Notes under the pieces: model-generated
Told to the model about the DNA's origin: nothing
Database searches by the model: none
The model's input: the letters and a program-made list of their open reading frames with translations, nothing else
Program-made: the position numbers and the translations under genes
Origin: Chryseobacterium taklimakanense
Lineage (GTDB): Bacteria > Bacteroidota > Bacteroidia > Flavobacteriales > Weeksellaceae
NCBI RefSeq assembly: GCF_900187185.1
Contig: NZ_LT906465.1
Location: 1,116,001-1,180,000, forward strand
Direction: 5' to 3'
Length of the DNA: 64,000 bases
In this document: piece by piece, positions 27,174-38,789 of the stretch
Layout of the letters: every line of letters begins with the position of its first letter
How positions within the stretch are numbered: position 1 is the first letter of the stretch

Positions 27174-27866
27174 TCACAGCTCCCGGCTGAAGGCCAATAA
27201 ATATTTGTCAATAAACATCTCCCTGTCCTTCGACCTGTACTGCTGGATGTACCTCGGATGTTCCAAAACGGTCATTGTCCCAAACAGTTTTTCACGGTCA
27301 TTGATTTTCTTCAGGAAAGCCGCATTTTTTACTCCCAGTACAAAAACTTCTGAGGTCTCAAGTCCCAAACTGATGTGCTTCTTCAAAGATTCCCCCATGA
27401 AATCTTCTACGCAACTGAACAGTGCTTTGTCGTCGTAATAATTGGCATTGAGGTAAACGCCGTTTTTTCCTTTTCTTGTAATTGCCAGCGGAAACGGCGA
27501 ATTGATATAAAACTGTGAATAAAATTTTTCCGCTCCGCCAAAGGCTTCAATCATATTGTAAAGAAAGACCGAAGAAACTTCGTGGGTTCGCGCGGATTTC
27601 ATTGTGATGCCGCAGTGTTTTTCGAGATTCTTGGTATCGGTGAACGGCACGCCGGTAACGCCGGCCCCATGACGGCTGGGATTGATGCCGATGAGGAATT
27701 TCCGAGTGCGGGTATCGCTGTAAAATTTGTCGTAGAACTGTTGCATCACGGTGAGAGTCTCGGGATTGTCCAGAAACGGGTTCATTACCTGGAAATCCGG
27801 GGGAAGGGCGCCGGTGTATTTCAGGTTTTTGTTGAAATGGACTACTTTTTGGCCGAAGGTTTTCAT
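27174..27866 (-). CDS. SMUG2-like uracil-DNA glycosylase family protein
   Basis: A 230-residue protein of the uracil-DNA glycosylase fold, likely a base-excision repair enzyme. The active-site-like motif is LIGINPSRHGAGVTGVPFTD near residue 65, comparable to the GxNPGP...TGVPFG of SMUG enzymes. The second motif, TVLEHPRYIQQYRS, is near residue 208 and supplies the His of the leaving-group loop. The frame is open for 26 more codons upstream, but that part is encoded by the repeat array, and ATG 27866 gives the natural N-terminus MKTFGQKVVHFN. Substrate range is not known from sequence. Confidence 0.85.
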   Translation of the reverse strand: MKTFGQKVVHFNKNLKYTGALPPDFQVMNPFLDNPETLTVMQQFYDKFYSDTRTRKFLIGINPSRHGAGVTGVPFTDTKNLEKHCGITMKSARTHEVSSVFLYNMIEAFGGAEKFYSQFYINSPFPLAITRKGKNGVYLNANYYDDKALFSCVEDFMGESLKKHISLGLETSEVFVLGVKNAAFLKKINDREKLFGTMTVLEHPRYIQQYRSKDREMFIDKYLLAFSREL

Positions 27867-27879
27867 TGTTTCACACAGG

Positions 27880-28226
27880 ATTTTTTTTTGCACTGATGTG
27901 ATGGATTTGCACTGATTAAAAATTGAAAAATTACTGTTCATCACAGTTTTTTTTTCGCACAGATCTCACAGATTTTCACAGATTTAATAAAGTGAAAATT
28001 TACTATTCAAATGTTCAACGTGTTTTTTCGCACGGATTGCACGGATTTACACAGATTTAATAAATTGAAGATTTACTGTTCAACACAGGTTTTTTTGCAC
28101 GGATTTCACGGATTTACACAGATTCAATAAATTGGAAATTTACTATTCAGGACAGTTTTTTCGCACGGATGGCACGGCGTGGCGCTGTTTATAAATTGAT
28201 AAACTACTATTTAAGATCATTGGTGT
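27880..28226. repeat. Left block of 65-75 bp dispersed repeats
   Basis: Five diverged tandem units start near 27880, 27947, 28021, 28088 and 28155. Each has a T-run, then CGCACGGATT, CACGGATTTACACAG and an AT-rich tail ending TTACTRTTCAA. The units lie between the glycosylase start and the GxxExxY stop. No coding potential of its own is credible. Confidence 0.85.
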
Positions 28227-28242
28227 AATTATGCACATGTGG

Positions 28243-28632
28243 CTAAAGATAACCGTTAACGATTCTTACGATATTCTTGTCAATTCTATTGGTATTAAAA
28301 TTAACTAAAATTCCTAGATGGCTGTTTGTAAGTTTAAGATAATTCAATAGTTGTTTATGGTGGAAAGGACTTAATTCTTCAACTGATTTCACTTCGATTA
28401 TTATTTTTTGCTCCACCAAAATGTCGATTCTAAAACCTAATCCTAAATCAGTGTCCTTATATTCAACACACAGCGGAAGTTGGCACTGCACTTCCAATCC
28501 CTGATTTTCAAGTTCTATAGCCAACGCTTTTTCATAAACATTTTCAAGCAAACCTGGACCTAGAATATTGTACACTTCAAAGATCGCCTTCCGAATCAAA
28601 TATGTAATTTCATTTTCAGTCATCATCACCAT
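28243..28632 (-). CDS. GxxExxY protein (PD-(D/E)XK nuclease-like)
   Basis: A 129-residue protein with the signature GPGLLENVYEKAL (G-x-x-E-x-x-Y near residues 22-30), CQLPLCVEYKD, and FRIDILVEQKIIIEVKSVEEL, in which Asp and the later Glu-x-Lys fit the PD-(D/E)XK nuclease core (Pfam PDDEXK_3). Its cellular role is not established. It is a lone gene in the middle of a repeat array, with five units on one side and seven on the other. A 56 bp copy of its start lies at the outer edge of the array. Confidence 0.9.
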   Translation of the reverse strand: MVMMTENEITYLIRKAIFEVYNILGPGLLENVYEKALAIELENQGLEVQCQLPLCVEYKDTDLGLGFRIDILVEQKIIIEVKSVEELSPFHHKQLLNYLKLTNSHLGILVNFNTNRIDKNIVRIVNGYL

Positions 28633-28678
28633 TTTAAAAGAAGGGGAAATCCAGCGGTAGGGCGCTGGTGTTTTTCAG

Positions 28679-29144
28679 GTTTTTGGTTATTTTTTTTTCG
28701 CACGGATTTGCATTGATTACAAAATTAAAAATTTACTTCAAAGTGTTTTTTCGCACGGATTACACAGATTTACACAGATTTAATAAAGTGAAAATTTACT
28801 ATTCAAATGTTCAACGTGTTTTTTCGAACGGATGGCACGGGTTTGCACTGATTACAAAATTAAAATATTACTGTTGAACACATTTTTTTCCCACGGATTA
28901 CACAGATTTACACAGATTTAATAAAGTGAAAAATTACTACTCAAATTTTCAACGTGTTTTTTCGAACGGATGGCACGGATTTGCACTGATTACAAAATTA
29001 AAAATTTACTTCAAAGTGTTTTTTCGCACGGATGGCACAGATTTACACAGATTTATTAAATTGAAGATTTAGTGTTCAACACATGTTTTTGACACGGATT
29101 GCGCGGATTGGTACGGATTAAAAATTCAAAGATTACTAAAAAAA
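28679..29144. repeat. Right block of 65-75 bp dispersed repeats
   Basis: Seven units start near 28680, 28744, 28819, 28883, 28957, 29019 and 29086, of the same family as the block at 27880-28226. Two subtypes alternate: one with GGATTACACAGATTTACACAG and a tail ending TTCAACGTG, the other with GGATGGCACGGATTTGCACTG. The alternation suggests that a two-unit block of about 138 bp was amplified. Confidence 0.85.
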
Positions 29145-29200
29145 ATCGCCTTCCGAATTAAATATGTAATTTCATTTTCAGTCATCATCTTTATTTTAAA
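29145..29200 (-). pseudogene. Truncated copy of GxxExxY gene start
   Basis: Fifty-six bases match 28583-28638, the leader and first codons of the GxxExxY gene, with four differences (44 of the first 45 are identical). The fragment keeps ATGATGACTGAA and runs to the Lys-Ala-Ile codons, then breaks into an A/T run at the repeat boundary. It cannot encode a functional protein. Confidence 0.8.
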
Positions 29201-29204
29201 CAAT

Positions 29205-29345
29205 GAATCAATTCAGCAATGGAACAATGTAAAAATGGAACAATGGAACAATGGAACAATGTAACAATGTAACAATGTAACAATTTGACAATTTGACAAT
29301 GTAATCATTTTTGATAAACGGGATTGGCACACTGTTACATTGATG
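29205..29345. repeat. AACAATGT/GGAACAATG short tandem repeats
   Basis: About ten copies of a 9-10 base motif (AACAATGTA, GGAACAATG, CAATTTGA) fill the gap downstream of the paaZ stop. The same motif family reappears around paaA at 37560-37650 and 38585-38700. Confidence 0.8.
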
Positions 29346-29350
29346 TATTG

Positions 29351-31840
29351 TTAGATTAAATTAAACTGCTCGAAATGATACGTGAAATGCTTCCGGTGGA
29401 ACAGCTCCCACATTTCTTTGTTGAGTTGGTGAAACAGCGGATGATTGTGCTCTGCGAGCGGATTTTCTTTATAATAAATTAAAAATTCGGTCAAACTTTC
29501 CAGGAATTTCGCTTTGGCTTCGTCCAGGTTTCTGTAGCGGAGCGGTGCGTTTTCGTTCTCAGGAAGCCCTTCGTATTTCAAGCCCTGGGAAATCGGTTTA
29601 TGTTTGTAGAGCCAGTCGCGGAGTTTCTCCAGCTGTTCTTCGTTCTGTTCGAGGAGTGGTGGCTGCGTTTTTCCGACGGAGAAATGCAGGAAATCTTCCA
29701 GATGTTCAAGCATATTTTGCGCCGTCATCAGTCCAAACTTTGGTTGGGTTTCAGGAGTGAGCCCGTTTAAAATTTTCTGAATTTCCTTTTTGTTTAAACT
29801 GATGAACGGTGATTTTTTCGCTACTAAAGTTAGAATTGTAGCCACGCAAACCACTTCCTCGCGCTGGTTTACCACTTCCACGAGCCATTTCACCACACCG
29901 GACGGAATATTCCTGCCTTTGACGCCGCGGTTGATTTTTTCTTTTGCTGTGAGGTAAACCGTAATCGTGTCTCCTGCATAAACCGGTTTGAAGAAACTCG
30001 CATTTTCGAGGCCGTAATTCGCAATCACCGGTCCTTTTTTGCCTGAAACAAACAGGCCGGCTGCTGCGGATAAAATAAAATATCCGTGCGCCACAGGCTG
30101 GTCGAAAATTGTACCTGAAAGACTGGTTGCATCGGTATGTGCATAGAAATGATCCCACGAAACATTGGAAAAATTCACGATATCGGCTTCTGTGACGGTT
30201 CTTCCCGCGGTTTCGAGGGAGTCGCCCACTTCCACTTCTTCAAAATATTGCTGGAACGGATGTTTGTCAGAATATTTTTTATCAGCGCCCTGCGTATAAA
30301 CTTTTGTAATCGCCGTGAGAATATCGGGCGAACCCTGAATTGCGGTTTTCTGTAAGAAGAAATGGAGCCCGTTAAGTCCGCCCATTTCCTCGCCGCCGCC
30401 CGCTCTTCCGGGGCCGCCGTGCATCAGCGTTGGCAAAGGTGAACCGTGACCAGTTGATTCTTTGGCATTATCACGGTTCAGAACGAAAATCCTGCCGTGT
30501 GATGAAGCCATTTTCCAGGAAGTTTCGGCAACAAATTTTTCGTCGTGTGAGATGATGGAGCCGACCAAACTTCCCTTTCCGCGCTTTGCCAAAGCCGCCG
30601 CTTCTTCCGCATCCCTGTACGGCATCATTGTGGAAACCGGACCGAACGCTTCAAGTTCGTGAGAAATATTTTTTTCAAAAGGTTTATCGTTGAAGAATAC
30701 TTTCGGCGACATAAAGGCACCGCTTTCGAAATCGGCATCCACCAGTTCGTGTTGGCCGTCGTAAACGAGTTCGGTTTCGGCTTTCAGTTTTTCTAATTTT
30801 TGGCTTAAAACTTCGAGTTCTTTTTTGCCGACGATGGAACCCATCCGGGTTTCGCGGTTCAGTGGATTTCCGATTTTGGTTTGGTCTAAAGCCTTAGACA
30901 AAGCATTCTGCACATCTCCCACCCAATTTTCGGGAACGATAATTCTGCGGATGGCGGTACATTTCTGTCCGGCTTTGGTGGTCATTTCGTTGCGGACTTC
31001 CCTGATGAACAGGTCAAATTCGGGCGTTCCGGGTTTTGCATCCAGGCCAAGAATTGAAGCATTCAAAGAGTCGGCCTCCATATTGAAACGCACGGCATTT
31101 CCGGCAATGGACGGTAAAGACTTGAGTTTTCGTCCCGTGTATGCGGAGCCTGTAAACAGCACAGAATCGCCGTCCTGTACATAATCCAAAATATTGCCAG
31201 GCTCGCCGCAGACCAGCTGAATGGCGCCTTCCGGGAGCAAACCGCTTTCAATCATATCCTGAAAAACGGCATTCGTAAGATAAGAACCCGGCGTGGCAGG
31301 TTTCACAATTCCGGGAACGCCCGCCAAAAGTGAGGTCGACAATTTCTCAAGCATTCCCCAAACCGGGAAATTGTAGGCATTAATTTGCACCGAAACACCT
31401 TCACTTGGCGTTAAAATATGTGTCCCGAGGTGCGTTCCGTTTGCTGAAATCTTCTGAACATCGCCATCTACCCAAAACGGAGTGTTGGGCAGCATTCTTT
31501 TCGCCAAGCCGGAATAGGTGAAAAACGTCCCGAAACCTCCTTCGATATCCACCCACGAATCGGAGTGGGTCGCACCGGTTTTATAAGAAAGTTCGTAGTA
31601 TTTTTTCTTTCTTTCCAGCAGGTAAAGTGCTACTTTCTTCAGCATTTCGCCACGGTCGTAGAACGTCATTTTCGACAGATTTCTGTAGCCTACCGTTCTT
31701 CCGTATTGAAGCGCCTCGTCGAAATTGATTCCATCGGTATCGGAAACTGCGACCAGTTCACCGTTAACCGCGTTGTATAGTGGAATACCTTCTCCTGTGC
31801 CTTCTATCCACTGTCCGGCGATATAGTTTTTTAGTTTCAT
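29351..31840 (-). CDS. paaZ: PaaZ oxepin-CoA hydrolase/aldehyde dehydrogenase with extra C-terminal domain
   Basis: An 829-residue fusion enzyme of aerobic phenylacetate degradation; it opens the oxepin-CoA ring and oxidises the resulting aldehyde. Residues 1-520 are an aldehyde dehydrogenase (PATPGSYLTNAVFQ, the catalytic-Cys segment KAGQKCTAIRRI, HGGPGRAGGG). Residues about 530-680 are the MaoC-like hydratase domain (DHFYAHTDAT, VAHGYFILSAAAGLFVSG). PaaZ normally ends here at about 680 residues. About 150 further residues (KFGLMTAQNMLEHLEDF, HPLFHQLNKEMWELFHRKH, HFEQFNL) resemble DUF1569/DinB-like four-helix proteins. ATG 31840 is chosen; the longer frame runs through a REP element. Confidence 0.92.
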   Translation of the reverse strand: MKLKNYIAGQWIEGTGEGIPLYNAVNGELVAVSDTDGINFDEALQYGRTVGYRNLSKMTFYDRGEMLKKVALYLLERKKKYYELSYKTGATHSDSWVDIEGGFGTFFTYSGLAKRMLPNTPFWVDGDVQKISANGTHLGTHILTPSEGVSVQINAYNFPVWGMLEKLSTSLLAGVPGIVKPATPGSYLTNAVFQDMIESGLLPEGAIQLVCGEPGNILDYVQDGDSVLFTGSAYTGRKLKSLPSIAGNAVRFNMEADSLNASILGLDAKPGTPEFDLFIREVRNEMTTKAGQKCTAIRRIIVPENWVGDVQNALSKALDQTKIGNPLNRETRMGSIVGKKELEVLSQKLEKLKAETELVYDGQHELVDADFESGAFMSPKVFFNDKPFEKNISHELEAFGPVSTMMPYRDAEEAAALAKRGKGSLVGSIISHDEKFVAETSWKMASSHGRIFVLNRDNAKESTGHGSPLPTLMHGGPGRAGGGEEMGGLNGLHFFLQKTAIQGSPDILTAITKVYTQGADKKYSDKHPFQQYFEEVEVGDSLETAGRTVTEADIVNFSNVSWDHFYAHTDATSLSGTIFDQPVAHGYFILSAAAGLFVSGKKGPVIANYGLENASFFKPVYAGDTITVYLTAKEKINRGVKGRNIPSGVVKWLVEVVNQREEVVCVATILTLVAKKSPFISLNKKEIQKILNGLTPETQPKFGLMTAQNMLEHLEDFLHFSVGKTQPPLLEQNEEQLEKLRDWLYKHKPISQGLKYEGLPENENAPLRYRNLDEAKAKFLESLTEFLIYYKENPLAEHNHPLFHQLNKEMWELFHRKHFTYHFEQFNLI

Positions 31841-31849
31841 AATTGTGTA

Positions 31850-31870
31850 GAGACGCGATTTATCGCGTTT
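31850..31870. repeat. REP palindrome downstream of the RAYT gene
   Basis: GAGACGCGAT, a TT loop and ATCGCGTTT form a near-perfect hairpin of 9-10 bp. It sits in the 5' leader of paaZ, between the paaZ ATG and the RAYT stop. It differs from the upstream copy at 32460 by one base in the stem. Confidence 0.85.
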
Positions 31871-31909
31871 AATATTTAAATTATATTTTGAATTTGTATT
31901 TTTATTCAA

Positions 31910-32455
31910 CTAAAAATGAAATTTATCCTCAACCCAATTTTTAGGATTGTTTTGGATATAATTTTCAATTCTGTTAAATGATTCTTCATTGCGGATGACA
32001 TGGTCCCAAAACCTGCTCTGCCACTCAAAATTTGGATAATTTTTCCGGATTTCAAATGTAACTCTTCCTTTATACCAACGGACAATACGGGAAATATTCT
32101 CGTTCAGCATGGGATTTTTTATTCCGGCAAAACCTCCATTTACTATTGAAACCGACTGCTTTTCAACAGTAATTTCTTTTTTCAATTTGTTAATGCAAAT
32201 AATTCCGTGAAAATGGTTCGGCATCACAACAAAACAACCTAATTCAGCGTAATTGAAATGTTCTGGAATTTCCATCCAAATTTTTTCGGCAATTTCACCG
32301 TTTTCATTCAATATCATTTTACCGTCTGAAATTTCACCGAACAATTTTTCATGATTCCGAATGCAGATCGTTACGAAATAAGGCGCATTATTTCCATAAT
32401 CCCAATTTTTCAGCCGTGCCGATCCGATACGGTATTTATTTTGAAATTTGTCCAT
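31910..32455 (-). CDS. REP-associated tyrosine transposase (RAYT, IS200-like)
   Basis: A 181-residue Y1/HUH transposase-like protein. It has YFVTICIRNHEKLFGEI at the start, the HUH metal site in VMPNHFHGIICI (His-Phe-His) near residue 98, and the probable catalytic Tyr in IENYIQNNPKNW near residue 168. RAYTs are single-copy, host-tamed relatives of IS200/IS605 transposases that act on REP palindromes. Matching palindromes of GAAACGCGAT type lie 5 bp upstream of the gene and 40 bp downstream. It separates paaI from paaZ, so it has been inserted in the phenylacetate gene cluster. Confidence 0.92.
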   Translation of the reverse strand: MDKFQNKYRIGSARLKNWDYGNNAPYFVTICIRNHEKLFGEISDGKMILNENGEIAEKIWMEIPEHFNYAELGCFVVMPNHFHGIICINKLKKEITVEKQSVSIVNGGFAGIKNPMLNENISRIVRWYKGRVTFEIRKNYPNFEWQSRFWDHVIRNEESFNRIENYIQNNPKNWVEDKFHF

Positions 32456-32480: not shown

Positions 32481-32526
32481 AATATTTTTTATAGAATTTT
32501 TAGATATACGTTTTAATATTTTATTT

Positions 32527-32647
32527 GAAACGCGATAAATGCAATTTGGTCGTATAATTGAAACGCGATAAATGCAATTTGGTCGTATAATTGAAACGCG
32601 ATAAATGCAATTTGGTCGTATAATTGAAACGCGATAAATCGCGTTTC
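32527..32647. repeat. 33 bp tandem half-REP repeats ending in a full REP palindrome
   Basis: Three exact 33 bp units start at 32527, 32560 and 32593. Each is GAAACGCGATAAATGCAATT plus TGGTCGTATAATT, so only the left arm of the palindrome is present. A fourth start at 32626 runs into a complete palindrome (GAAACGCGAT, AA, ATCGCGTTTC) ending at 32647. The array sits in the gap between paaI and the RAYT gene. Confidence 0.9.
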
Positions 32648-33357: not shown

Positions 33358-34508
33358 AGGTTAAAAGTTTTAAATTGTAATTTTAGCAATAAAGGGCTTT
33401 GCCGGTAGCGTTCTTCCTGATATTCATCGTGAAGATTTTTTAAAGTTTCGGATATTTTTGAATAACCAATTTCTTCACCCCAAGCCAGCAGTCCTTTTGG
33501 ATAATTGACGCCCTTCTGCACCGCGAGTTCCAGGTCTTCATCGGAGGCAATTTTCAAACGTTTGGCTTCTACAGCTTCGTTGATAAGCATGGAAATGATT
33601 CTCATAAAAATTTGCTGATACAGCGCCTCATTCTTTTCAGCAACAGGATTTTGAGCGTTTTCTGCATACCCGTAAAAACCTTTCCCCGTTTTTCTGCCGT
33701 GAAGTTTGGCTTCGCTCATCCTTTGCTGGAGGAGTGAAGGTTTGTATTTCGGATCGTAGAAATAATCTTTGTAAACCGTGGTGGTTACGGCAAAATTTAC
33801 GTCAACACCGATTAAATCCATCAGTTCAAACGGTCCCATTTTAAAATTGCCCAAAGTGCGCATGGCATCATCCACCTGTTCCGGCGTGGCGATATTTTCT
33901 TCGACGATTCTCAAGGCTTCGCCGTAGAAAGGTCGTGCTATCCGGTTGACGATAAAGCCGGGTATATCTTTCGCAATCACAGGAACTTTGCCCCAGGATT
34001 TCATTAAATCATAAATTTGCTGCGGTAAATTTTCCCGCGTCAAGAGCCCGGGAATCACTTCCACCAAAGGCATTAAAGGTGCAGGATTGAAAAAATGAAT
34101 TCCAATAAATCTCTCCGGTTTTTCCAAATCTGCGGAAAGCGAAGTAATGGAAATGGACGACGTATTCGATGCGATAATGCAATCATCAGAAACCGTACTT
34201 TCAACCTCAGCGAAAACGCTCTTTTTAATTTCGGCATTTTCGATGATGGCTTCGATTACCAGATCACATTTCTTAAATTCGGAAATCGATGCGCAGGAGG
34301 TGATGTTCCCGTAGATTTCTTCCGATTTTTCAGATGAAATTTTCTGTTTTTCAACGAGTTTATTCAGGGTTTTCTGAAGACCGGCAAGTGATTTCTCCGT
34401 TTGCGTGGCACTGGCATCGTATAAGAAAACTTCACAACCGGCTGCTGACGCCACCTGTGCGATGCCGATTCCCATAGTCCCGGAGCCGATGATTCCTACT
34501 TTGTTCAT
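33354..34508 (-). CDS. paaH: 3-hydroxyacyl-CoA dehydrogenase PaaH
   Basis: A 384-residue NAD-dependent dehydrogenase that oxidises 3-hydroxyadipyl-CoA to 3-oxoadipyl-CoA. GIIGSGTMGIGIAQVAS opens the Rossmann domain. IHFFNPAPLMPLVEVIPG near residue 140 carries the catalytic His of the family, and GFIVNRIARPFYGEAL with GPFELMDLIGVD marks the C-terminal domain. A second C-terminal half-domain (KGVNYPKGLLAWGEEIG) is also present. The longer frame starts with a TTG in AT-rich repeat, so ATG 34508 is used. Confidence 0.93.
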   Translation of the reverse strand: MNKVGIIGSGTMGIGIAQVASAAGCEVFLYDASATQTEKSLAGLQKTLNKLVEKQKISSEKSEEIYGNITSCASISEFKKCDLVIEAIIENAEIKKSVFAEVESTVSDDCIIASNTSSISITSLSADLEKPERFIGIHFFNPAPLMPLVEVIPGLLTRENLPQQIYDLMKSWGKVPVIAKDIPGFIVNRIARPFYGEALRIVEENIATPEQVDDAMRTLGNFKMGPFELMDLIGVDVNFAVTTTVYKDYFYDPKYKPSLLQQRMSEAKLHGRKTGKGFYGYAENAQNPVAEKNEALYQQIFMRIISMLINEAVEAKRLKIASDEDLELAVQKGVNYPKGLLAWGEEIGYSKISETLKNLHDEYQEERYRQSPLLLKLQFKTFNL

Positions 34509-34546
34509 AATTTGAGAATTTGTCAATTTGAGAATTTGAAAATGTT
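34505..34546. repeat. AT-rich TTGAGAATTTG repeat, left of four-helix gene
   Basis: Short repeats of AATTTGAGAATTTGAAAAT occupy the junction between the paaH start and the four-helix-bundle gene. A similar array in inverse orientation is at 34921-34960, so the guest gene is framed by inverted low-complexity sequence. Confidence 0.6.
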
Positions 34547-34904
34547 AACCCTGACGGGTTTTAGAACTTGAAATAATTTTAGAGAGAATCAAAATAATTT
34601 CTTTTAAATCAGAAATTAATTTTTCGGGAGGCGAATTTAGCCTTTCAGATTTTTGGCACAACAAGAGCCAATATTCGGTTTCGTCTGCCTCTTTCGCAGC
34701 AATTTTCATTTTATGGATAAAATCACTTTTGCTTTCTGCATTTTGTGCTTCCCGTACATTTGCACCTATTGATGTTCCAGCTTTGAAAATCTGATTGGCC
34801 AAAGAAAAACGATTCATATTAAAAAACACCTCTGAAAAATCAATAATTTCTAAAGCAAAGTCAAAGGTTTTTGCAACGATAATATTTTCTCTGTCGTTTC
34901 TCAT
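34545..34904 (-). CDS. Four-helix-bundle protein (S23/IVP family)
   Basis: A 119-residue protein of the S23 ribosomal intervening-sequence family. FDFALEIIDF, NQIFKAGTSIGANVREAQNAES, DFIHKMKIAAKEADETEYWL and a final helix fit its four amphipathic helices. Its function is unknown; the family is often encoded by mobile or intervening sequences, including insertions in 23S rRNA. Here it interrupts the paaG-paaH junction. The stop codon lies at the edge of a small hairpin (AACCC, GTCA, GGGTT) at 34547-34560. Confidence 0.9.
   Translation of the reverse strand: MRNDRENIIVAKTFDFALEIIDFSEVFFNMNRFSLANQIFKAGTSIGANVREAQNAESKSDFIHKMKIAAKEADETEYWLLLCQKSERLNSPPEKLISDLKEIILILSKIISSSKTRQG
34547..34560 (-). 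terminator. Small hairpin at the end of the four-helix gene
   Basis: A 5 bp stem (AACCC/GGGTT) with a four-base loop spans the last codons of the four-helix-bundle gene on the minus strand. It is too short and has no T-run, so it is at best a weak terminator or pause site. Confidence 0.3.
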
Positions 34905-34920
34905 CTCACTTTTTGCACCG

Positions 34921-34960
34921 TTATTTTCAAATTAGCACATTTTCAAATTAACAAATTATT
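34921..34960. repeat. AT-rich TTCAAATTA repeat, right of four-helix gene
   Basis: Copies of TTTTCAAATTA fill the gap between the four-helix-bundle gene and paaG. Read on the minus strand they match the AATTTGAAAATG array at 34505-34546, which makes an inverted pair around the guest gene. Confidence 0.6.
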
Positions 34961-37494: not shown

Positions 37495-37650
37495 GGGATT
37501 TTATTAATGTAACAATTTATCAATGTATCAATTTACCAATAGACCAATTTATCAATTTACCAATCTGACTGTTACATTGTTACATTGTTATATTATTACA
37601 TTGTTACATTATTACATTGTTACATTGTTACATTGTTACGTGGTTACATT
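37495..37650. repeat. CAATTTATCAATTTACC and TTACATTGT repeats between paaB and paaA
   Basis: Two motif types are joined here: CAATTTAYCAATTTACCAATA (37505-37565) and nine or so copies of TTACATTGT (37570-37650). The second runs into the last codons of paaA. The array includes the left 34 bp arm (37544-37577) of an inverted pair. Confidence 0.9.
37544..37577. repeat. Left arm of perfect 34 bp inverted repeat around paaA
   Basis: The 34 bases beginning CCAATTTATCAATTTACCAA are the exact reverse complement of 38719-38752. Imperfect similarity extends about 20 bases outward on each side. The arms enclose paaA and about 1.14 kb. Confidence 0.92.
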
Positions 37651-38574
37651 TTTAAACTTCTCCGCGTACGCTACGGCAGCTTCCTTTACCCAGGCGTTTT
37701 CCTTCTGGGCGTTTATTTTGGTTTGCAGGCGTTTTTTATTGGCAGGACCGTTTCCTTTCAGCCCTTCCATAAATTCGTCCCAAGGCAAATCTCCAAAATC
37801 GTAGTGGCCGCGTTCTTCGTTCCATTTCAGGTTTTCGTCGGGAATTTTGAGACCTAAAAATTCAGCCTGAGGAACGGTAACATCCACAAAACGCTGGCGC
37901 AGGGAATCGTTGCTTTCCCTTTTCACGCGATAGTTCATTGACTTTTGAGAATTGGGCGAGGCATCGTCATTGGGCCCGAACATCATGAGTGCCGGCCACC
38001 AAAAGCGGTTCAGCGCCTGCTGCGCCATTTCTTTCTGCTGTTTTGTACCGCGGCAGAGTGTCATCAGGATTTCATAACCCTGGCGCTGGTGGAAAGATTC
38101 TTCTTTACAAATCCTTACCATCGCCCGGGCATAAGGGCCGTAAGAATTCCCCATCAGCATAACCTGATTCATGATCGCAGCACCATCCACCAGCCAGCCA
38201 ATCGCACCGATATCTGCCCAGCTCAAAGTGGGATAATTGAAAATACTGGAATATTTTGCTTTCCCGGCAAGCATATCACTGTATGCAGAATCCCGGTCAG
38301 CATTGACGGTGCCGTCATTCAAAGTTTCGGTAGCGGCATAAAGGTAAAGCCCGTGCCCGGCCTCATCCTGAATTTTGGCTAAAAGTGCCATCTTTCTGCG
38401 CAAAGACGGTGCCCTGGTAATCCAGTTGGCTTCCGGCAGCATCCCGACCACCTCAGAATGCGCATGCTGAGAAATCTGCCTTACCAAAAGTTTGCGGTAA
38501 TCTTCCGGCATCATATCCTTTGGCTCCACTTTGTTTTCGGCCTGTACGTATTCTAAAAATTTATTATGATCCAT
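37636..38574 (-). CDS. paaA: Phenylacetyl-CoA epoxidase catalytic subunit PaaA
   Basis: A 312-residue di-iron monooxygenase subunit that epoxidises the ring of phenylacetyl-CoA. Iron ligands lie in ferritin-like helices: the Glu and His of [18 protein letters not shown] near residue 85 and [13 protein letters not shown] near 170. [20 protein letters not shown] and ISAW-like N-terminal features fit the family. ATG 38574 is used because the longer frame is encoded by TGTAACAATG repeats. The last codons (Asn-Val-Thr-Thr) are written by the TTACATTGT array that follows. Confidence 0.94.
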
Positions 38575-38584
38575 AATTTCAATG

Positions 38585-38789
38585 CAGCAATTTAATAATG
38601 TAACAGTGTAGCAGTGTAGCAATGTAACAGTGTAACAATATAACAATATAACAATCTAACAATCTAATAATATAACAATGTAACCATGTAGCAGCGTAAA
38701 CCTGTAACCATTATAACCATGTAACAGTCAGATTGGTAAATTGATAAATTGGTTCATTGGTAAATTAATAAATTAGGTACATTTTTACA
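38585..38789. repeat. TGTAACAATG repeats upstream of paaA
   Basis: About fifteen copies of a 9-10 base motif (AATGTAACAG, TATAACAATC) fill 38585-38715. They are followed by the right 34 bp inverted arm and more GGTAAATTGATAAATT sequence. It is the mirror image in composition of the array at 37495-37650. Confidence 0.9.
38719..38752. repeat. Right arm of perfect 34 bp inverted repeat around paaA
   Basis: The 34 bases beginning ATGTAACAGTCAGATTGGTA are the exact reverse complement of 37544-37577. Confidence 0.92.

Follow-up and report, generated by a model that had tools for sequence, protein, structure and literature searches.

Several traits of the locus described here recall RAYT/REP systems, in which, according to two reports, a lone nuclease gene lies between two inverted repeats that co-diversify with it, several diverged single copies of the gene occur per genome, and the repeats are both dispersed and tandemly clustered (PMC2817692, PMC3116915). 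Like RAYT/REP (REPIN, BIME), the GxxExxY family presents as a lone nuclease-type gene with two inverted repeats, these repeats co-diversify with the protein, the gene occurs as diverged single copies, and the repeats are found both dispersed and clustered; in contrast to RAYT/REP, the enzyme is of the PD-(D/E)XK and not the HUH/Y1 type, the arms consist of phased 7-bp words whose spacers do not match, repeat abundance did not follow gene presence significantly (7 vs 44 genomes), and the copy in our window has no inverted pair. IS elements and MITEs share with the GxxExxY family the inverted termini around one gene and the arm-only derivatives; they differ in that GxxExxY genes have no known transposase domain and no recognised target duplication, and inverted termini of the DNA transposon/IS kind are found in the family but not at the window copy. 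The S23/IVP genes (rRNA intervening sequence ORFs) are likewise small, multicopy and present in the same genomes, and at 25 of 38 loci they too have short-period repeats in inverted orientation on both sides, but they encode an unrelated protein and have another repeat class. Among the full texts searched, two papers name GxxExxY, in passing (PMC8934634, PMC12085832), and one matches PF13366, PDDEXK_3 or TIGR04256 (PMC9756366); the arm word strings occurred in none with a title pointing to bacterial repeats.

The window, a 64,000-nucleotide stretch of the Chryseobacterium taklimakanense genome, holds an array of twelve units of ~53–73 bp, five to the left and seven to the right of an intact GxxExxY gene (Table 1). 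This array had been reported in an initial annotation made from the sequence, and it is real: with up to three mismatches the word pair CACRGATTNNCACRGATT has 13 matches in the window, 11 of them inside the array, vs a mean of 1.86 and a maximum of 7 in 100 shuffles of the window. The left units start at ~27883, 27950, 28023, 28090 and 28156 (spacing 66–73), and the right units at ~28690, 28746, 28819, 28884, 28957, 29019 and 29085 (spacing ~53–73). The two subtypes said to alternate in the right block were recovered as a 138-bp dimer, successive dimers being 85–88% alike, and the gene fragment to the right of the array was likewise recovered.

Table 1. Features of the GxxExxY locus and its neighbours (positions within the window)
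Feature	Position	Strand	Evidence
Uracil-DNA-glycosylase-superfamily gene, left neighbour	27174..27866	-	PF03167 57 bits
Source of duplicated piece, 5' part of left neighbour	27791..27831	.	88% identical to 28645-28685
Left repeat block, five units; putative expanded 3' arm of GxxExxY element	27883..28193	+	
Intact GxxExxY gene, predicted PD-(D/E)XK nuclease fold	28243..28632	-	Profile matches, predicted fold
41-bp duplicated piece of left neighbour	28645..28685	.	88% identical to 27791-27831
Right repeat block of seven units; 138-bp dimer in which two subtypes alternate	28690..29122	+	
Second GxxExxY gene, fragment (5' part)	29141..29200	-	92% identical to 28579-28638
Period-8 AACAATGT array, at place expected for 5' arm	29199..29304	+	
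Aldehyde dehydrogenase + MaoC gene, right neighbour (PaaZ-like)	29351..31840	-	PF00171 and PF01575

The array had been taken as split by the gene, and this part of the annotation we would replace: the layout of five and seven units together with the gene fragment stems from a tandem duplication of a segment made up of the glycosylase 5' end, the repeats and the GxxExxY gene, after which most of the second gene was deleted. We draw this from the recurrence of the 41-bp glycosylase piece (alignment score 57, where up to 3000 randomly chosen places in the window scored no higher than 24), from the gene fragment, and from the left and right blocks, which are 80% alike over 329 columns. From left to right the locus comprises the glycosylase gene, a repeat block, the intact gene, the glycosylase piece, the other repeat block and the gene piece. 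Repeats in the same orientation on either side of the gene would also be expected had a GxxExxY gene jumped into an existing array and split it; as a tandem duplication is marked by the glycosylase piece that recurs, by the partial second gene and by the similarity of the blocks, and as match positions in another genome (G025) give the order glycosylase, repeats, gene, PaaZ-like gene with a single repeat block only, we rejected such an insertion and regard it as highly improbable. In our reading, an element situated between the glycosylase and PaaZ-like genes had its 3' arm grow into an array, the segment was duplicated, the second gene was mostly lost, and no 5' arm is left; within the right block the 138-bp dimer was amplified. 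The arm words expected on the 5' side are absent within 300 bp of the window copy, and its repeats have one orientation on both sides.

A tie between the exact repeat and GxxExxY genes did not survive a wider search. This 2.76-Mb single-contig genome holds 69 strict pairs (57 forward, 12 reverse), of which the 10 in the window all lie in the array and the other 59 lie elsewhere in the genome; the exact repeat flanks one of its two GxxExxY genes, the second (1745401–1745748) having none. Further arrays, at ~735.5–737.0, 739.3–739.5, 741.7–742.7 and 888.4–890.9 kb and, on a smaller scale, at 768 kb, stand apart from both genes. Of 197 genomes in the bacterial family 112 contain the strict pattern; the reversed one has a single match among those listed. 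Forty sampled family loci (~793 kb) gave no strict match, and the exact CACRGATT family was thus rejected as a general GxxExxY partner; with one mismatch, 6 of these loci have a match within 300 bp vs 3 loci at 3–10 kb, three of the six being orthologues whose match falls within the end of the coding sequence. Genomes with a CACNGAT-armed gene did not hold significantly more dispersed copies (p=0.16; 7 vs 44 genomes, with part of the gene copies read). At least two CACNGAT words were present in 5 of 27 loci in high-repeat vs 2 of 26 in zero-repeat genomes, and 4 of 10 vs 2 of 13 genomes had such loci, a contrast that is partly circular (51 and 49 listed matches, 30 each with loci; 29 and 27 loci entered, four partial matches being left out, and 27 and 26 usable). 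Arrays of the same words, with units of ~121, 185 and 88 bp, were seen in this genome at L021:5400–7060, L021:11700–12800 and L023:5350–7900.

What does recur around GxxExxY genes, more frequently than chance, is a class of short repeats arranged in inverted arms. In 40 family loci (every fourth row among the first 149 listed, giving 38, plus two added rows) the similarity of the inverted flanks reached at least 99% of a position-shifted null (n=4433) at 27 loci, vs 15 of 40 in direct orientation, and at 16 of 22 with orthologues removed. An inverted flank score of at least 26 was found for 20 of 25 GxxExxY genes, compared with 14 of the 232 other genes in those regions (10 of 14 GxxExxY genes with orthologues removed), in a comparison for which 38 of the 40 genes could be called, both gaps had to be at least 40 bp, and 13 genes with a shorter gap were dropped; the top two scorers among the other genes include a Y1-like transposase, named by reading its sequence. 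Among 80 loci from named genomes, mostly Bacteroidota but in part assigned to Melioribacter, Planctomycetota, Treponema, Tolypothrix and others (for metagenome bins such assignments may be in error), three were too short, and 58 of the remaining 77 passed in inverted vs 21 in direct orientation, orthologues still included. A score of at least 27 was reached by 120 of 173 unique elements.

These arms often start with TTAACC and are built of CRCARAG words, whose spacings peak at 9, 10–12 and 21–22 bp. In the expected orientation the 80 loci contain 171 such words upstream (forward) and 169 downstream (reverse), densities of 7.2 and 7.3 per kb, and in the opposite orientation 55 and 52. Far flanks totalling 438 kb have 95 and 105, or 0.22 and 0.24 per kb, so that the enrichment in the expected orientation is ~30-fold. 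At least two words per arm were present at 36 of the 80 loci and, counting any orientation, at only 3 of the 40 family loci, where the word density is nonetheless 3.0 per kb in near vs 0.31 per kb in far flanks; the flanks of 30 S23 loci have 0.3–0.6 per kb, and none has two words on both sides. Given that flanking by this short-repeat class is far above chance, the gene and its repeats form a recurring unit, ~0.48 and 0.58 kb long in two cases with readable boundaries, and present in several phyla. In the bacterial family, GxxExxY is found in 143 of 197 genomes at a patchy 0–11 copies. Strict CRCARAG pairs number 147 in 20 family genomes, vs 9 for the reversed pair pattern. A count by eye placed only one of the 147 no more than 500 bp from a GxxExxY gene, and in this family the class is therefore mostly distant from the gene. 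The proposal of a self-spreading or repeat-maintained element thus holds in part: gene and repeat class recur together, while the exact repeat is mostly elsewhere. A lack of association in other genomes, which would have counted against the proposal, is not what we see once the repeats are taken as a class in inverted arms. Separately, we observed 17 CGCAAAG word pairs, mostly at ~96-bp spacing and with no GxxExxY gene nearby, at G080:C1:53834–55588.

The window protein is a clear member of the GxxExxY family (TIGR04256, 141.5 bits vs a cut-off of 35; PF13366, 142.6 bits vs a cut-off of 22), which bears out the earlier naming of its gene. No relative of solved structure was found by sequence. 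An AlphaFold2 model built from 66 sequences (pLDDT 93.8, pTM 0.88) matched best to 4ic1 (SSO0001), which we take to be a Cas4 (Z 10.1 over 99 residues, rmsd 3.1), followed by 3ijm (Z 8.2) and 4r5q, titled Cas4 (Z 6.8); Foldseek gave a best E-value of 0.0079 and none at 0.001 or better. By sequence there was a faint match to a Cas4 profile (E 0.0033), and significant E-values in the profile search were confined to PD-(D/E)XK models. Cas4 proteins have a PD-(D/E)XK core with a QxxxY motif, and four conserved cysteines for an iron-sulphur cluster. Such a core with QxxxY is seen in the residues and predicted fold of GxxExxY, D70, E80, K82, Q94 and Y98 being invariant in the alignment, whereas of the four-cysteine set only C36 is among the columns at least 90% conserved in the 66 sequences; the features of an HUH/Y1 tyrosine transposase were not found. 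The predicted fold is accordingly closest to Cas4-type nucleases, and we infer nuclease activity from this fold and these residues. GxxExxY proteins thus share with Cas4/RecB-type nucleases the predicted fold and the D, ExK, Q and Y residues; they differ from Cas4 in having at most one nearly invariant Cys column, and the window gene stands alone between its arms.

The two arms of an element resemble each other, matching in 40 of 53 usable loci (of 56), vs 7 of 84 comparisons between arms of different copies within one genome. Between non-orthologous loci, arm similarity climbs with protein identity, from a median score of 14 below 45% identity to 24–26 at 70% or above (13 of 202 candidates dropped, duplicate genes still included). 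Both arms hold a 9-bp word pair at 25 of 80 loci; there, an element's own arms have the word variant in common (0.44 vs 0.17; reached by none of 5000 permutations) but not the 2-nt spacers (0.30 vs 0.29; reached by 2438 of 5000). As a paired stem requires matching spacers and a protein that reads words does not, the spacer mismatch favours a protein, and we consider that a protein therefore probably reads the arm words.

A column scan over 58 typed loci of the 80 picked out one C-terminal position (mutual information 0.465 vs a 99% maximum-null value of 0.298), equivalent, by an alignment made by eye, to residue 125 of the window protein. The residue there covaries with base 2 of the word: of 48 unique strict elements, 46 have either Ile and CAC (20) or Val/Ala and CGC (26), and the two exceptions both have Val and CAC. 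Starting from 202, this set was reached by omitting 10 without the motif and 16 duplicates (176 left), then 106 with fewer than three heptamers and 15 without the C-terminal motif (55 typed), and lastly 7 of mixed type. With duplicate genes removed, disjoint nearest pairs gave 20 as predicted, none opposite and two that do not differ. Of the independent pairs, the best tree has 9 of 10 as predicted and none opposite; over 200 bootstrap trees the mean is 8.8 of 10.0, and no tree has an opposite pair. Well-supported branches alone gave two independent pairs, counted with duplicates still in, which are too few for significance. A GC bias behind the rule was rejected, as CAC-type loci have the higher GC, which is the wrong direction. 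The rule is weaker in the CRCNGAT class, to which the words of the window array belong: CAC is found with Ile in 15 rows and with Val in 5, and CGC with Val/Ala in 7 and with Ile in 1, counts that include orthologues, repeated genes, doubtful rows and misread residues at L114 and L323, with four rows unassigned; the window gene itself has Val with CAC words, against the rule, as do four others of the 20 CAC-type rows. With its own inverted word arms and a residue that tracks one base, which suggests that the protein reads the words, GxxExxY becomes a directly testable candidate for a DNA-recognition system.

Evidence that the unit moves comes chiefly from one site. The ~581-bp element L112, behind a PdxA gene in its own genome (G159), was compared with equivalent sites in 36 genomes of the genus; 29 sites of others were read and none has its arms, single CRCARAG words being present at two of them (L372 and L398), from which we infer one clean gain. 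The L109 element or its like has the same flanks in 10 genomes of the genus, its own included, and 20 further sites chosen as empty comprised several without trace, several with a one-arm scar and one with a gene remnant; because several retain such a scar, loss by deletion appears to be common. No target-site duplication was recognised at the L109 and L112 sites, which are too diverged. Copies within one genome have a median identity of 39% and a maximum of 56% (42 pairs), which argues against recent movement. GxxExxY was found in 8 of 72,556 plasmid records and gave no match in phages. At the emptied sites L299, L300, L301, L302 and L303, a leftover TCTGTG arm end seems to give the downstream gene its GTG start.

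Taken together, these data suggest that the gene and its repeats belong to a single selfish element; the most likely account is a unit of the RAYT/REP kind whose enzyme resembles Cas4. With somewhat better than even confidence, we propose that a small element, made of a Cas4/RecB-like PD-(D/E)XK nuclease gene between inverted arms of 7-bp words (CRCARAG and relatives; CACRGAT in the window), encodes a protein that would bind the words of the arms, probably in dimeric or multimeric form, and cut there; that cutting would let the element, rarely, be copied or moved; and that arm-only derivatives would spread as dispersed and tandem repeats, the window copy having been duplicated and damaged. The most serious challenge to this proposal holds that a resident host protein uses the arms as operators or targets, in a unit that is inherited and lost and does not move itself, GxxExxY binding either controlling its own gene or acting on incoming or damaged DNA. 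The old and diverged copies, the numerous syntenic orthologues and the losses by deletion all suit such a protein, and the coupling between protein and word would suit an operator equally well; the inversion of the arms on both sides, the clean gain, the arm-only arrays elsewhere and the patchy copy number of 0–11 fit it poorly, and we consider it rather unlikely.

Gene and repeats might also simply gather in the same permissive intergenic DNA without a functional link, as the distance of most dispersed word pairs from the gene, and the inverted flanks that S23 and Y1 genes likewise have, could be taken to indicate. Such DNA would account poorly for the 30-fold, orientation-specific excess of a single word class beside GxxExxY genes, which S23 genes lack, for the covariation of word and residue, or for the rarity of inverted arms at other genes with intergenic flanks, and we hold this to be improbable. 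It is very improbable that the arms are kept for stem pairing, as RNA or single-stranded DNA, in the manner of rRNA intervening sequences or hairpin-ended elements: inverted arms do match each other, and one dispersed unit of this genome (from the L021:5400–7060 array) folds as a single-stranded DNA hairpin (z -3.1), but spacers match equally within and between loci, and a single L109 arm and two window units folded as DNA no better than shuffles; in a search for known RNAs in Rfam the sole match was sub-threshold (E 0.7). Returning to the selfish element with a Cas4-like nuclease, we put at a little under even the broader and more tentative claim that it belongs to an unrecognised class, spanning several phyla, with a residue-base code (Ile for CAC, Val/Ala for CGC), rare self-movement and arms that have seeded arm-only repeats and arrays. 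A RAYT/REP-like lifestyle would then have, in GxxExxY, another enzyme unrelated to the first, and the arms could account for a class of dispersed intergenic repeats.

The S23/IVP genes are another family that carries its own arms, and these are built from a different class of repeat: inverted flanks reached at least 99% of the shifted null at 17 of 30 loci in the bacterial family, and at all eight tested in this genome among 11 matches listed. In the window, an S23/IVP four-helix-bundle gene (34545–34904, minus strand) has inverted period-8 AATTTGAG arms near 34507–34543 and 34923–34959. Inverted period-8 TGTTACAT / CAATGTAA arrays (37500–37654 and 38580–38783) surround an ordinary PaaA_PaaC-type gene, and the AACAATGT array beside the GxxExxY fragment is related to them. 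A Y1/RAYT-like gene (31910–32455) adjoins a 33-bp repeat present in 3.5 perfect copies (32525–32639), and the 852-residue ORF at 29351–31909 seems to have been called with too long a start, in repeat-derived sequence, 31840 being likelier.
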